Shown: positions 26,160 to 29,923 of the stretch, piece after piece | Numbering within the stretch: the stretch's first letter is position 1 | Layout of the letters: every line of letters begins with the position of its first letter | Assembly: GCF_000787835.1 (NCBI RefSeq) | Contig: NZ_BBPP01000064.1 | Coordinates: forward strand, 1 to 32,171 | DNA: 32,171 nt | Source: Streptacidiphilus melanogenes | Lineage (GTDB): Bacteria; Actinomycetota; Actinomycetes; Streptomycetales; Streptomycetaceae | Direction of reading: 5' to 3' | Made by a program: the position numbers and the translations under genes | The notes under the pieces: model-generated | What the model saw: only the letters and a program-made list of their open reading frames with translations | Told to the model about the DNA's origin: nothing | The model's database searches: none

Positions 26160-28412
26160 TCAGGCGTCGTCTCCGCAGGAGTACAGCTGCTGGGACGCGC
26201 CCGCGCGGCCGAACGGCGACGGACCGCCTTCCTGGTCGCTCCGCTGGGACGGCGCGGTCGCGCCGTAGGCGCTCGGCGGGACGACGGCGCACGACTGGCG
26301 GACCCAGGACTGCACCGGGCTGCTCTGGCCTGCCCCCATGCCGCCGCCCAGCAGGACGAAGCGGAGCTGGCGCGTGGAGACCAGGTGCTGGAACTGACTC
26401 AGCGTCGGGCTCGGCACCGCGCCGGTGAAGCCGCCCATCGGGAGGACCTCCTTGCCGGTGGCCAGGATGAACGGCGAGGCGGTGCTCCAGCTGGACGTCG
26501 CCATCAGGTAGCGGGCGCTCCCGTCGTGCGAGGTCACATACGAGAAGAGCTGCTGTTGCGCCGCAGACAGCGTCGTGGTGCCGCCGAACCCGCCACCGAG
26601 GCCTTCGCCCCGGCCCCCGCCACCGCCGAGGCCGCCACGGCCGCCGCCCTCGCGGTGACCCGCGCCGCCGCGCGTCGCGCCCGCGAACCCCGCGAAGCCG
26701 CCATGTCCGCTCGGGCCGACCGAGCCCATCATCGAGGCCATGCCGCCGCCCGTGCCGGTGGACAGGACCGAGGTGGCCCAGGCCGCCGGGGTCACGACCA
26801 CGGCGAGCAGTCCGGCCGCCAGGCCGGCCGCGGCGAGGCGCGGGCGCGCCAGGCGCGGCACGCGGCCCACCGCCAGGAGCGCGAGAGCGACGGTGGTCGC
26901 GGCGATCGCGACCGGCGCGGCCCACGGGCGGAAGGTCGGGAACGGGTTCGCCAGCCACACCGCCCACGCCGCGGTCGCGGCGATGGCGACGGGCAGCACC
27001 AGCGCCTTGCGTCCGCCGGAGCGGTACGCGCGCCACATGCCGACCAGGCCTGCCGCGCTCAGCGCGGCGAGCGGCGTGGCGATCACGCCCATGTAGTAGC
27101 TGTGCCCGCCGACGCTTCCCGCGCTGAAGGCGAGGAAGAAGACGGCCAGCCAGGTTCCCCACATGAGGTAGCCCGCGCGCAGCGGGTCGGTGCGCGGCCG
27201 ACGACGGCGCCAGGCGAGACCGCAGACGAAGGAGATCGCCGCGAGCGGGTAGAGCCAGCCGGTCTGGGAGGCGATCGACGAGCCGAACATCTTGGACCAG
27301 CCGCCGTCACCGCCTCCGCCGCCGCCGAGCACGGCCGCCTGTGCCGCGAGCGACTGCGCGGACGTGCCCTGCCCGCCGCCACCGCCGCCCGCGGACCCCT
27401 GCTGTCCCGTGCCGCCCACGCCCTGACCCGCCGTGCCCTGGCCGCCGGAGCCGTGCCCCCTGGCGCCCGCGCCGGACCCGTGACCGCCACCGCCCCGGAC
27501 GGCCTGGATGCTGCCGGTGTCCGAGGCGCTCATGCCGACCGAGGAGAAGCGGTTCAGGAAGTTGTAGCCGACCACCATGCTGTACGCGGAGTTGTCCGTG
27601 GTCCCGTCCACATAGGGCCGGTCCTTCGCGGGCGTCAGCGTCACCAGCGCGATCCAGGAGGCGGAGACGGCGACCGTCACCACGCCCGCCACCAGGACGT
27701 GGCCGAGGCGACGCCGCAGCGGCGCGGGCGCGGAGACGAGGTAGACCAGCGCCAGCGCGGGCAGCACCGCCCACGCCTCCAGCATCTTGGTCTGGAAGGC
27801 CAGGCCCACCCAGACGCCGGAGAGGACCAGCGTCCGCAGTCGGCCGGTCCGTGCCGCGCGCTGCGCCGCCTCCGCGGCGCAGATCAGCAGCAGCGTGAAG
27901 GCGGGGTCCTCGACGGAGGTGCGGAACAGTCCGGCGATCACCGGAGTGAGCGTGAACAGCCCGCAGGCGAGCAGCGCGGCGCTCGCGCCGGCCCACTGCC
28001 GGACCGCCCGGTAGAGCACCAGGACCGCGAGCACGCCCTCGACCGCCTGCGGCAGCGCCACCGACCAGGCGTGGAACCCGAAGATCCGCGCGGACAGCGC
28101 CTGCGGCCACACGAAGCCGGGCAGCTTGTCCAGCGTGATGGTGCCGGCCGGGTCGAAGGAGCCGAAGACGAACGCCTTCCAGCTCTCCGCGCCGCTGCGC
28201 GCGGCGTTCGCGTAGAAGCCGTGGAAGGTCGCCTGGTCGATCCGCCAGAAGAACAGCAGGGCGGCCAGGGCCGCGATCCCGAGCAGGGCGGGCCGGGCGT
28301 AACCGGGCTGGTCGGCTGGGGATCTCCAGGGGCGGAGACGGGTGGCGCGAGAGACGTTCGGAGAATCCGGGGGCGTCGTGAGGACGCCCGTGACACTTGG
28401 AGCCATAGACAT
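26160..28412 (-). CDS. GT39-family membrane glycosyltransferase (ArnT/PMT-like)
   Basis: Polytopic GT-C enzyme of about 750 residues, transferring a sugar from a polyprenyl-phosphate donor on the outer face of the membrane. The first luminal loop FHGFYANAARSGAESWKAFVFGSFDPAGTITLDKLPGFVWPQAL is the family's catalytic region, followed by many helices (VEGVLAVLVLYRAVRQWAG, TPVIAGLFRTSVEDPAFTLLL). Two Gly-rich inserts break the protein: one of ~55 residues at about 300-360 and one of ~35 residues at about 590-625. A soluble C-terminal domain (QQQLFSYVTSHDGSARYLMATSSW ... QLRFVLLGGGMG) ends in YSCGDDA. I chose ATG 28412; GTG 28451 and ATG 28406 are alternatives, none with a clear ribosome-binding site. 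Acceptor (protein, lipid or wall polymer) unknown. Divergent from the thrS leader. Confidence 0.88.
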   Translation of the reverse strand: MSMAPSVTGVLTTPPDSPNVSRATRLRPWRSPADQPGYARPALLGIAALAALLFFWRIDQATFHGFYANAARSGAESWKAFVFGSFDPAGTITLDKLPGFVWPQALSARIFGFHAWSVALPQAVEGVLAVLVLYRAVRQWAGASAALLACGLFTLTPVIAGLFRTSVEDPAFTLLLICAAEAAQRAARTGRLRTLVLSGVWVGLAFQTKMLEAWAVLPALALVYLVSAPAPLRRRLGHVLVAGVVTVAVSASWIALVTLTPAKDRPYVDGTTDNSAYSMVVGYNFLNRFSSVGMSASDTGSIQAVRGGGGHGSGAGARGHGSGGQGTAGQGVGGTGQQGSAGGGGGGQGTSAQSLAAQAAVLGGGGGGDGGWSKMFGSSIASQTGWLYPLAAISFVCGLAWRRRRPRTDPLRAGYLMWGTWLAVFFLAFSAGSVGGHSYYMGVIATPLAALSAAGLVGMWRAYRSGGRKALVLPVAIAATAAWAVWLANPFPTFRPWAAPVAIAATTVALALLAVGRVPRLARPRLAAAGLAAGLLAVVVTPAAWATSVLSTGTGGGMASMMGSVGPSGHGGFAGFAGATRGGAGHREGGGRGGLGGGGGRGEGLGGGFGGTTTLSAAQQQLFSYVTSHDGSARYLMATSSWSTASPFILATGKEVLPMGGFTGAVPSPTLSQFQHLVSTRQLRFVLLGGGMGAGQSSPVQSWVRQSCAVVPPSAYGATAPSQRSDQEGGPSPFGRAGASQQLYSCGDDA

Positions 28413-28536
28413 GACACTGGGTGACAAACCTGTGAAAACGCGCTGAAACACCCCGACTCGCCGGTTTTCATAACCCGCTCTGGTGCAGGTCTTGCCGTGT
28501 ACGGAGAAATTCTCAGCCGAGCTGCGGCCCGACTGC

Positions 28537-28542
28537 TACCTT
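28537..28542 (+). promoter_or_regulatory. -10 box of the thrS leader
   Basis: TACCTT followed by exactly seven bases and the ATG of the leader peptide at 28550, the geometry of a leaderless transcript. No good -35 is seen. Confidence 0.55.
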
Positions 28543-28549
28543 CTCTCCC

Positions 28550-28603
28550 ATGCAGCTCGCAGCCGCCTCCACGACGACGCCGGATCCCGTCCCGGCGCGC
28601 TGA
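28550..28603 (+). CDS. Threonine-rich leader peptide of thrS
   Basis: A 17-residue peptide, MQLAAASTTTPDPVPAR, with three consecutive Thr codons (ACG at 28571-28579). It starts at the predicted transcription start and ends 20 bases before an intrinsic terminator hairpin that precedes a threonyl-tRNA synthetase gene. This is the layout of ribosome-mediated attenuation: lack of charged tRNA-Thr would stall the ribosome on the Thr triplet and allow read-through into the synthetase gene. The peptide itself has no other expected role. Confidence 0.78.
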   Translation: MQLAAASTTTPDPVPAR

Positions 28604-28623
28604 GAGCTGTCAGAGTCCAGTCC

Positions 28624-28650
28624 AAGCCCCGGGCGAGTGCCCGGGGCTTT
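28624..28650 (+). terminator. Attenuator terminator in thrS leader
   Basis: AAGCCCCGGGC (28624-28634) pairs perfectly with GCCCGGGGCTT (28639-28649) around a GAGT loop and ends in CTTTC. It lies between the leader peptide and the thrS start (28706). The competing antiterminator pairing could not be resolved by eye; CCCGG at 28590-28594 is one weak candidate. Confidence 0.8.
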
Positions 28651-28705
28651 CGCATGCGGTCACTCGTTCCGGTCCCCGACGTACCAAGACCACGAGGTGA
28701 CCCCG

Positions 28706-29923
28706 ATGCACGACCACCGCAAGCTCGGCCGCGAGCTGGGCCTCTTCGACACCGACCCGATGATCGGCGCCGGGCTGCCGTACTGGCTCCCCGACGGCGC
28801 CGTCCTCCGCCACGAGCTGGAGGAGTACGTCCGGGACCTGGAGCGGCGCGCCGGTTACCGGCACGTCTACTCGCCCGTGCTCGGCAAGCGCGACCTCTAC
28901 GAGCGGTCCGGGCACTGGGCGCACTACCGCGAGGACATGTTCCCGCCCATGCGTCTCGGCGAGGAGGAGGTCGTGCTGCGACCGAGCCTGTGTCCCCACC
29001 ACGCGCTGATCTACCGCTCCCGCGCCCGCAGCTACCGCGAGCTGCCGCTGCGGTTCGCCGAACTCGGCGGCATGTACCGGTCCGAACTCTCCGGTGTGCT
29101 GGGCGGCCTGACCAGGGTTCGGGCCATCCAGCTCAACGACGGCCATGTCTTCTGCACCCTGGACCAGGTCGCCGACGAGGCGGCGCGGGCACTGGAGTTG
29201 ATCCGCGAGGTCCACCGGGTTCTCGGCGTCGAGCCGGTCCGCTACCGGCTCTCCCTCCCCGGCGAGGGCGGCAAGTACGTGGCCGCACCCGAGCTCTGGG
29301 AGCGGTCGGCGGCCCTGCTGACCGAGGTGCTGGAGAAATCCGGCCTTCCCTTCGAGGCGCAACGGGGCGAAGCGGCCTTCTACGGACCCAAGATCGACGT
29401 CCAGATCGCCGACGGCGCCGGACGGGAGGCGACCCTGTCGACCGTGCAGGTCGACTTCCACCAACCCGAGCAGTTCCAGCTCGAGTACGTCGGCGCGGAC
29501 GGCGGGCGGCACCGCCCGGTGATGGTCCACCGCGCGGTCATCGGCAGCATCGAGCGCGCCGTCGCGCACCTGATCGAGCTCTACGGCGGCGCGTTCCCGG
29601 CCTGGCTGGCGCCCGTCCAGGTGGTGCTGCTCCCGGTCTCGGCAGCGGAGGAGCCCCAGGCCGAGGAGGTCGCGGCCCGGTGCCTGGAGCTCGGGCTGCG
29701 GGCCGAGGTCGCCGGGCCGCAGCAGGGCACCCTCGGCGCGCGGATCCGCGCCGCGCGGCTCGCGCCCTACCAGGCCGTCATCGGCGCCCGCGAGGCCGCC
29801 GACGGCCTGGTCGCCCCGCGTCTGCGCGACGGCTCCCGCGCCGCGCCGCTCCCGGCGGCGGAGTTCGTCGCGCGCGTGACCGCGGGCGTCGCGTCGCGCG
29901 AACGCGAGCCGCGGCTCGGCTGA
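28706..29923 (+). CDS. thrS: Short threonyl-tRNA synthetase lacking TGS and editing domains
   Basis: A 405-residue class II synthetase that charges tRNA-Thr. ATG 28706 has GAGGTGA five bases upstream. The protein begins directly with DHRKLGRELGLFDTDP, where the catalytic domain of full-length ThrRS (~640-660 residues) begins, so the N-terminal TGS and Ser-tRNA-editing domains are absent. Zinc ligands C96 (LCPHH, usually NCPGH), H147 (NDGHVFC) and H275 (PVMVHRA) are kept, as are motif 2 (YRSELSGVLGGLTRVR) and motif 3 (GSIERAVAHL). The C-terminal anticodon-binding domain (WLAPVQVVLLPVSA...) is complete. Most likely a second, inducible copy beside a housekeeping thrS elsewhere; possible roles are rescue under Thr limitation or resistance to a ThrRS inhibitor such as borrelidin. 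Controlled by the Thr attenuator. Confidence 0.93.
   Translation: MHDHRKLGRELGLFDTDPMIGAGLPYWLPDGAVLRHELEEYVRDLERRAGYRHVYSPVLGKRDLYERSGHWAHYREDMFPPMRLGEEEVVLRPSLCPHHALIYRSRARSYRELPLRFAELGGMYRSELSGVLGGLTRVRAIQLNDGHVFCTLDQVADEAARALELIREVHRVLGVEPVRYRLSLPGEGGKYVAAPELWERSAALLTEVLEKSGLPFEAQRGEAAFYGPKIDVQIADGAGREATLSTVQVDFHQPEQFQLEYVGADGGRHRPVMVHRAVIGSIERAVAHLIELYGGAFPAWLAPVQVVLLPVSAAEEPQAEEVAARCLELGLRAEVAGPQQGTLGARIRAARLAPYQAVIGAREAADGLVAPRLRDGSRAAPLPAAEFVARVTAGVASREREPRLG

Follow-up and report, generated by a model that had tools for sequence, protein, structure and literature searches.

A threonine leader peptide and hairpin upstream of a short threonyl-tRNA synthetase gene of Streptacidiphilus melanogenes, a probable attenuator with a putative second, translational layer

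Overview of the thrS2 leader region

A leader region comprising a small threonine-rich ORF and a stable hairpin was identified upstream of thrS2, a gene coding for a short threonyl-tRNA synthetase (ThrRS), in Streptacidiphilus melanogenes. The window analyzed is the whole stretch of 32,171 nucleotides of contig NZ_BBPP01000064.1. The occurrence of the Thr leader together with the hairpin before the short thrS gene is not due to chance. The RNA element, which is conserved in many actinobacteria of the soil, probably turns the spare thrS gene on when ribosomes stall for want of Thr-tRNA. Judged by the comparison of related sequences, the assignment of the region as a thrS2 attenuator is well supported, and covariation supports a putative second layer of control. 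We regard it as likely that thrS2 is subject to a two-layer control, consisting of an attenuator which is operated by the Thr leader and of a translational layer which is formed by the hairpin loop and a strand complementary to the Shine-Dalgarno (SD) sequence.

An initial annotation of the window had described a -10 box, a leaderless 17-residue peptide with three consecutive threonines and an 11-bp hairpin in front of a ThrRS gene, and all of these elements were recovered where it had placed them. It had overlooked the strand at 28658-28666, for which either the loop of the hairpin or the SD region is a possible pairing partner, and the AT-rich box at 28506-28511. The features of the region are listed below in the order in which they lie on the plus strand.

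28506..28511, plus strand: WblC/WhiB7-like box GAAATT (GAAAWY), which precedes the start of the -10 hexamer by 31 nt
28537..28542, plus strand: -10 hexamer TACCTT, 7 nt before the ATG of the leader
28550..28603, plus strand: ORF of the conserved leader peptide MQLAAASTTTPDPVPAR∗, 17 residues, probably leaderless
28571..28579, plus strand: the three control Thr codons ACG ACG ACG
28589..28595, plus strand: core of region 2, GTCCCGG, a potential antiterminator by pairing with the 5′ arm of the hairpin; in the ribosome-free state it can pair with upstream leader sequence instead
28624..28634, plus strand: 5′ arm of the hairpin (region 3), AAGCCCCGGGC
28635..28638, plus strand: tetraloop GAGT of the hairpin (strand A), SD-like, covarying with strand B
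28639..28649, plus strand: 3′ arm of the hairpin (region 4), GCCCGGGGCTT
28658..28666, plus strand: strand B, GGTCACTCG, which pairs with the loop (ACTC:GAGT) or with the SD region
28693..28702, plus strand: strand C, CGAGGTGACC, which holds the SD sequence GAGGTG (28694-28699), is predicted to pair with 28658-28666 and covaries with strand B
28706..29923, plus strand: thrS2, coding for a short ThrRS of 405 aa that consists of the catalytic core and the anticodon-binding domain only

The short threonyl-tRNA synthetase

The gene thrS2 starts with an ATG at 28706. Its product scores 438 bits with the NCBIfam model TIGR00418 (cut-off 383.65) and is thus a member of the ThrRS family. The match spans positions 171-563 of the 565 positions of the model, with which the Pfam search agrees, and the alignment to the full-length ThrRS of Escherichia coli (1qf6) begins at residue 242 of the latter. 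The editing and TGS domains are absent. The source genome also encodes a full-length ThrRS, which is 44% identical to the short one. In the 450 nt upstream of this housekeeping thrS no Thr leader was seen by eye, and the upstream region gave no match to the covariance model R1 of the leader region. The best named relatives among the matches listed are Streptacidiphilus anmyonensis and S. neutrinimicus, with ThrRS identities of 96 and 95%, respectively.

In four loci (L027, L062, L117, and L118) the short ThrRS was seen by eye to carry an N-terminal tail upstream of the conserved start. These tails have the appearance of repeats in which His, Asp, and Arg codons abound, and they are located at the place which the editing domain takes in the full-length enzymes.

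Distribution and linkage to thrS2

The short thrS gene is present in 12 of the 14 genomes of the genus and in 62 of the 394 genomes sampled from the class, belonging to 18 of 138 genera, and at least 80 named short-ThrRS loci were retrieved. The sequence pattern ACGCCGGNNNNNGTCCCGGCGCGCTGA was found once per genome in 50 of the 394 class genomes, and 49 of these occurrences adjoin a short thrS gene, while the reversed pattern, which served as control, was found in none. In the fiftieth genome (G247) the element is located at a contig end.

With the covariance model R1, 150 Streptomycetaceae genomes were searched; 88 of them gave 89 matches of at least 60 bits, and the next lower score was 41. 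Of these strong matches 70 were retrieved, and 68 precede a short ThrRS gene; the other 18 genomes with strong matches were already among the genus and class genomes with a short thrS. Overall, a strong match lies ahead of a short thrS in 86 of the 88 genomes. The two exceptions are L177, which is the contig-end element of G247, and L220, a relic without the gene. The weak matches of R1 behave differently, as none of the eight that were retrieved adjoins a ThrRS gene; together with the single occurrence of ACGCCGGNNNNNGTCCCGGCGCGCTGA per genome, this led us to reject a use of the leader ahead of other genes. The distribution, which covers 18 genera or more among the class genomes sampled, gives an evolutionary basis to a leader which, as far as the available text goes, is briefly entered in a reannotation paper (PMC8079986).

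The relic L220 (G416, positions ~147-260) has no ThrRS gene, and its start codon and Thr run are decayed; its loop CGGT and the strand ACCG still match. Near the start of contig C1 of genome G455, two copies of the element with equal scores lie inverted to each other at 26641-26786 and 52960-53105, perhaps as the result of a duplication.

The threonine leader peptide

The leader ORF starts with the ATG at 28550. A leader with three consecutive threonines was identified in 139 of 146 upstream regions of orthologues (85 distinct loci of a first set and 61 of a second set), where some rows stand for one genome that entered via two collections, e.g., L041 and L094. Four of the seven regions without a leader (L068, L082, L128, and L150) reach a contig end and comprise too little sequence. 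In L154 the leader is present, but further upstream; L073 has lost both leader and hairpin from its short thrS, and L058 has the hairpin and no recognizable leader within its 155 nt. A further short thrS without a leader was noticed in L219 (G424), where the hairpin and strand B are kept.

The typical leader reads M-K-R-A-A-x-T-T-T-P-E/D-x-V-P-A-R. The first, second, and third Thr codon is ACG in 132, 138, and 139 of the 139 loci, respectively; in four genes of the window ACC (56) is used more often than ACG (31). The residues just before the Thr run vary among the loci. The initial annotation had tied its reading of the leader and hairpin as an attenuator to the conservation of the Thr codons and of the hairpin among orthologues, and the counts given above support it.

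The nucleotides of the leader are nearly invariant and thereby steadier than the peptide alone would require. In L133 and L142 the sequence CCCGGCGCGCTGA is retained though the reading frame is shifted there. Since nucleotides are kept out of frame in these two loci, a constraint at the RNA level is the better reading, and a nascent-chain arrest peptide with the conserved tail PESVPAR, which was considered as well, was ruled against.

The promoter and its WblC-like box

In 131 of 138 loci, a hexamer TAnnnT ends 6 or 7 nt ahead of the first codon of the leader, whereas a looser spacing of 4-10 nt was found for 66 of 6,850 random upstream positions, which served as control. According to the available text of PMC8079986, the -10 motif of S. 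lividans is TAnnnT, with a mean of 6.3 nt between the -10 region and the transcription start, so that the mRNA is probably leaderless. A consensus scan of 28400-28800 called no sigma-70 promoter, and no -35 motif stands out among the leader promoters.

An AT-rich patch is located 28-32 nt upstream of the -10 hexamer, with an AT content of 0.72-0.87 at positions -31 to -29 against a background of 0.29. Of 130 promoters, 35 have the motif GAAAWY at -34 to -31 from the -10 hexamer, and the remainder of the 80 nt upstream is free of it. With at most one mismatch it is present in 73 of 126 distinct promoters, compared to 0-4 of 126 in six shifted windows. A GAAAWY box upstream of the -35 region at a fixed spacing is the arrangement of promoters of the WblC/WhiB7 regulon, and the leader promoters conform to it in sequence. 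In the accessible parts of PMC7157823 the WblC signal is given as GAAAWY, 3 nt upstream of the -35 region, and thrS2 of S. coelicolor is listed as activated by WblC. The gene SCO3778, which is named as a threonyl-tRNA synthetase in the available text of PMC10771440, may be the orthologue of the short ThrRS gene of the window. The predicted WblC-like box suggests a place for the spare ThrRS in the antibiotic response.

On the minus strand (26160-28451), a large protein with Gly-rich insertions is encoded divergently to the leader promoter, and the start of its ORF lies ~55 nt from the WblC-like box.

The hairpin and its termination potential

The hairpin AAGCCCCGGGC-GAGT-GCCCGGGGCTT at 28624-28649 has 11 bp, and the folding energy of 28540-28706 has a z-score of -3.1 relative to 200 shuffled sequences. 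In region 2, the sequence CCCGG and CGCGCTGA following it are invariant throughout the 62 rows of alignment A1. The hairpin had initially been called a terminator. The 11-bp stem is there, but it is a candidate terminator only, as three T follow the stem in the window and the consensus scan of 28400-28800 called no terminator. The same is seen in the orthologues, which are poor in U-tracts: the longest T run has at most three residues in 132 of the 139 loci, and runs of four to six were found in seven, e.g., in L077 (TTTTTT after the stem) and L119 (TTTTT).

The statement that the region has no T-box features held up. In the window the T-box, like every other family, stayed below its Rfam gathering score, by which a T-box or another known RNA family was rejected as an explanation.

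Pairing of strand B with the loop and with the Shine-Dalgarno region

A strand B resembling GGTCACTCGC lies downstream of the hairpin in all aligned loci except a few variants. In the matching loci the loops AAGT, GGGT, GGAT, AGGT, GAAC, and GAGC are answered by the B sequences ACTT, ACCC, ATCC, GCCT, GTTC, and GCTC, respectively. Loop and strand B are fully paired in 106 of the 139 loci, with 13 loop types; none of 20,000 permutations reached the observed value, where the permutations, here as for the pairing of B with C, leave the relatedness of the loci in. Among the loops other than GAGT, 32 of 53 are fully paired. When the register was shifted by -2, -1, or +1, the mean fell from 3.6 to 1.4-1.8 of four pairs, and an unplanned negative control, in which the columns of B were taken off by one, gave no signal.

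Alignment A1 consists of 62 of the 134 listed loci, where L033, L046, L047, L061, and L153 are out of its reference list due to long insertions or divergence. It contains two-sided changes in all four A:B pairs, and for the hairpin and A:B together 52 two-sided cells were counted versus 11.6 in shuffled data. Alignment A2 was built from 53 of the 70 strong loci, picked outside A1, using a model without the A:B pairs; two of its rows (L181 and L196) are the same as rows of A1, leaving 51 new rows. Here, 85.4% of the A:B cells are paired versus 78.8% after shuffling, with 16 versus 4.9 two-sided cells. All of these A:B counts include rows in which strand B has moved or is lost.

By eye, L212 and L215 (G470 and G466) have the loop GAAC or GGAC together with a downstream strand that is mismatched in the usual register. 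Their SD sequence appears to be covered by another strand.

The covariation of B with C is weaker than that of A with B. Of the B:C cells, 84.9% are paired versus 82.6% in shuffled data, and two-sided changes occur in seven of the nine pairs. The duplex energy of B with its own C is 1.4 kcal/mol better than that with a swapped one (-14.1 versus -12.7 kcal/mol), which none of 20,000 permutations reached. Tested by columns on 54 distinct types, the pairing lies mildly above the permuted data (328 of 20,000), and the part CTCGC:GCGAG alone was reached by 3,323 of 20,000 permutations. A separate design was found in L153 and L154, whose ThrRS is 56-57% identical and which keep the TTT leader with a different RNA: GGGCUCC pairs with the SD sequence GGAGCCC and matches an upstream GAGCCC. 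A conserved helix over the SD sequence, as it characterizes a translational attenuator, is thus found both in the B:C covariation and in these two loci. Strand B enters the transcript only once the hairpin has been made, so that it is unable to act in termination there; this points to a role in translation (or in RNA stability).

At the level of sequence comparison, the leader, its ACG codons, the spacing to the -10 hexamer, the hairpin, the covariation of A with B and of B with C, and the exclusive link to the gene can be taken as established.

Proposed mechanism

From the promoter with its WblC-like box, an mRNA would probably be made that is leaderless, with the thrL leader at its very start. 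With ample Thr-tRNA, the ribosome would reach the stop codon of the leader and cover region 2, so that the GC hairpin 3:4 forms. If no ribosome translates the leader, upstream leader sequence would sequester region 2 (1:2), and again the hairpin 3:4 would form. If instead the ribosome stalls at the ACG codons, region 2 would stay uncovered and could form the helix 2:3 with the 5′ arm of the hairpin. The hairpin itself may have two outputs. It could act as a transcription attenuator, at least in species with a T run, and by tying up strand A in its loop it could let strand B fold onto the SD sequence, by which translation is blocked. In the case of an unformed hairpin, the free strand A would take strand B right upon its synthesis, at a time when the SD region has yet to be transcribed, and the SD sequence would stay open. 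Such a switch would follow a kinetic order, in which A is made first, B next, and the SD sequence last. We infer the timing of these steps, the readthrough, the sense in which the switch works, and uncharged tRNA-Thr as its signal; thrS2 would then be induced by uncharged tRNA-Thr or by an inhibitor of ThrRS.

The stalling was simulated for 134 loci (5 of the 139 were skipped), where the RNA was ended before the 3′ arm and a ribosome footprint of 28 nt was masked. The 2:3 helix was formed in 126, 124, and 91 of the 134 loci with the ribosome at the first, second, and third Thr codon, respectively, in 23 without a ribosome, and in none with the ribosome at the stop codon, where region 2 itself is masked. 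The pattern is the one expected for classical attenuation; in a control with the letters of the 5′ arm shuffled, however, at least five 2:3 pairs were still formed in 975 of 1,340 folds (73%), and the simulation therefore argues only weakly for 2:3. Regions 2 and 3 hardly vary and thus contain no covariation information on this helix.

The state with 2:3 forced is 12.7 kcal/mol less stable. In its minimum-energy folds strand B pairs with the loop in 26 of 126 loci and with the SD side in 72 of 126, and by the criterion used B meets the SD side in 70 of 126 in the OFF fold. With 2:3 forced, 5.72 of the 8 SD bases are paired versus 5.63, by which the SD sequence is no freer in silico. A clean thermodynamic switch is unsupported, as SD pairing stays about unchanged, and the switch would have to be kinetic.

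Alternative explanations

A plain transcription attenuator of the trp type, made up of the leader, 1:2, 2:3, and a terminator 3:4, would reduce strand B to a part of an SD hairpin or of the untranslated region. The order and spacing of the elements fit this, 2:3 is available upon ribosome stalling, and the T runs of four to six in 7 of the 139 loci, among them L077 and L119, are in line with it. We nevertheless regard it as unlikely, since T runs do not exceed three in the other 132 loci and the covariation of the loop with a strand transcribed after the hairpin is left unexplained. In a purely translational attenuator, there would be no termination at the hairpin, and leader translation would decide only on whether B covers the SD sequence. 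The poor U-tract, the covariation of B with C, and the independent counterpart in L153 and L154 agree with it, as does thrL of S. lividans, for which a hairpin without a U-rich sequence is likewise given in the available text of PMC8079986. However, a classical attenuator is what the conserved complementarity of region 2 to the 5′ arm and the place of the hairpin resemble, and GC-rich hairpins of Actinobacteria without a U-tract may still terminate. We regard this explanation as very unlikely.

The other two alternatives concern the signal and the purpose of the system. The leader could mainly sense ribosome-targeting antibiotics instead of Thr-tRNA and act within the WblC response, as the WblC-like box and the listing of S. 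coelicolor thrS2 among the WblC-activated genes (PMC7157823, accessible parts) would suggest. Chloramphenicol is reported to stall ribosomes most just after Ala, Ser, or Thr codons (available text of PMC12121999, citing Marks 2016), and the leader of the window reads AAASTTT. This is quite unlikely to be the main signal, as a Thr run which is fixed at three ACG codons, stands before a Thr enzyme, and is preceded by variable residues points to tRNA-Thr. Second copies of ThrRS such as ObaO serve in self-protection (PMC11252418, as far as accessible), and thrS2 could in the same way be an immunity gene coding for a borrelidin- or obafluorin-resistant enzyme. This is extremely improbable: at the site where ObaO has Ser (E. 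coli Gly463, beside Tyr462) the short ThrRS has Gly, within the motif FYGPK, the position of Leu489 appears to be Gln in the alignment read by eye, and an occurrence in 62 of 394 class genomes and 18 genera is too widespread for the immunity to one product.

Under the two-layer attenuator responding to Thr-tRNA, a synthetase without editing would answer to a signal specific for Thr, and its promoter box would make it a part of the antibiotic response. With the SD-mimic loop, a single leader peptide would link termination to translation by compact means. More tentatively, and with considerable doubt, these parts can be combined to a switch with three gates, in which WblC would open the promoter under antibiotic stress, stalling would open the attenuator, and the SD-mimic loop would relay the decision to translation by taking the anti-SD strand. 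The stall at the Ala, Ser, and Thr codons would then result from uncharged tRNA-Thr or from an antibiotic acting on the peptidyl transferase. If this holds, production of the editing-free ThrRS would require antibiotic stress and stalled translation at the same time.

Comparison with known leader regions

The basic idea is already in print, as a leaderless Thr leader peptide (MKRVRPFLETTPGFVPAR∗) upstream of thrS is described for S. lividans TK24 in the available text of PMC8079986 (thrL-thrS, SLIV_19412/SLIV_19410). Both systems have a Thr leader before thrS, one hairpin, and no U-rich tract, and MKR, TTP, and VPAR occur both in the S. lividans peptide and in the leaders of this study. In contrast, the accessible parts of that paper concern one strain and a leader with two Thr and do not describe alternative folds, an SD layer, or a comparison among species. 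A back-translated pattern of PGFVPAR from the S. lividans peptide was found in 0 of 200 Streptomycetaceae genomes, so that the link to thrL is one of peptide likeness only. Beyond the published thrL, the covariation of the loop, strand B, and the SD region adds a further layer, and the WblC/WhiB7-like box is added at a fixed distance. A part of the puzzle of the thrL hairpin that lacks a U-tract (PMC8079986, available text) may be answered by a conserved partner of the loop which lies downstream and touches the SD sequence. No paper on a thrS or threonyl leader in Streptomyces was found besides PMC8079986 in word searches of openly accessible literature, and an earlier prediction may exist.

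The proposed control can be examined in ordinary laboratory Streptomyces. The auxiliary trpRS1 of S. coelicolor is reportedly controlled by attenuation, as is said to be the finding of Vecchione and Sello. Leader-peptide attenuators of trpS and leuS were found in Streptomyces, and no conserved RNA structure was reported for actinobacterial threonine genes, both according to the available text of PMC1262725. The trpS and leuS attenuators resemble the thrS2 region in that an auxiliary or regulated synthetase stands under a leader with many residues of the amino acid it charges (PMC1262725, same parts), whereas here the loop of the hairpin also pairs with an anti-SD strand.

In tlrB (yxjB) of Bacillus subtilis, one leader peptide likewise affects both termination and an SD-sequestering hairpin. 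In contrast to the thrS2 leader, tylosin is sensed there by a nascent-chain arrest motif, and an SD mimic in a hairpin loop is not described in the accessible parts of that paper (PMC6851288). The second ThrRS of Anabaena, T2, is similarly auxiliary, impaired in proofreading, and induced by stress; it differs in being under the zinc-regulated Zur, and a leader is not described in the available text (PMC4787780). Finally, the LEU element and the translational T-boxes are RNAs of actinobacterial amino-acid genes which also use a pseudoknot or SD sequestration, but in the LEU element the Leu codons pair with the SD sequence and the T-boxes bind tRNA (PMC1262725, available text).
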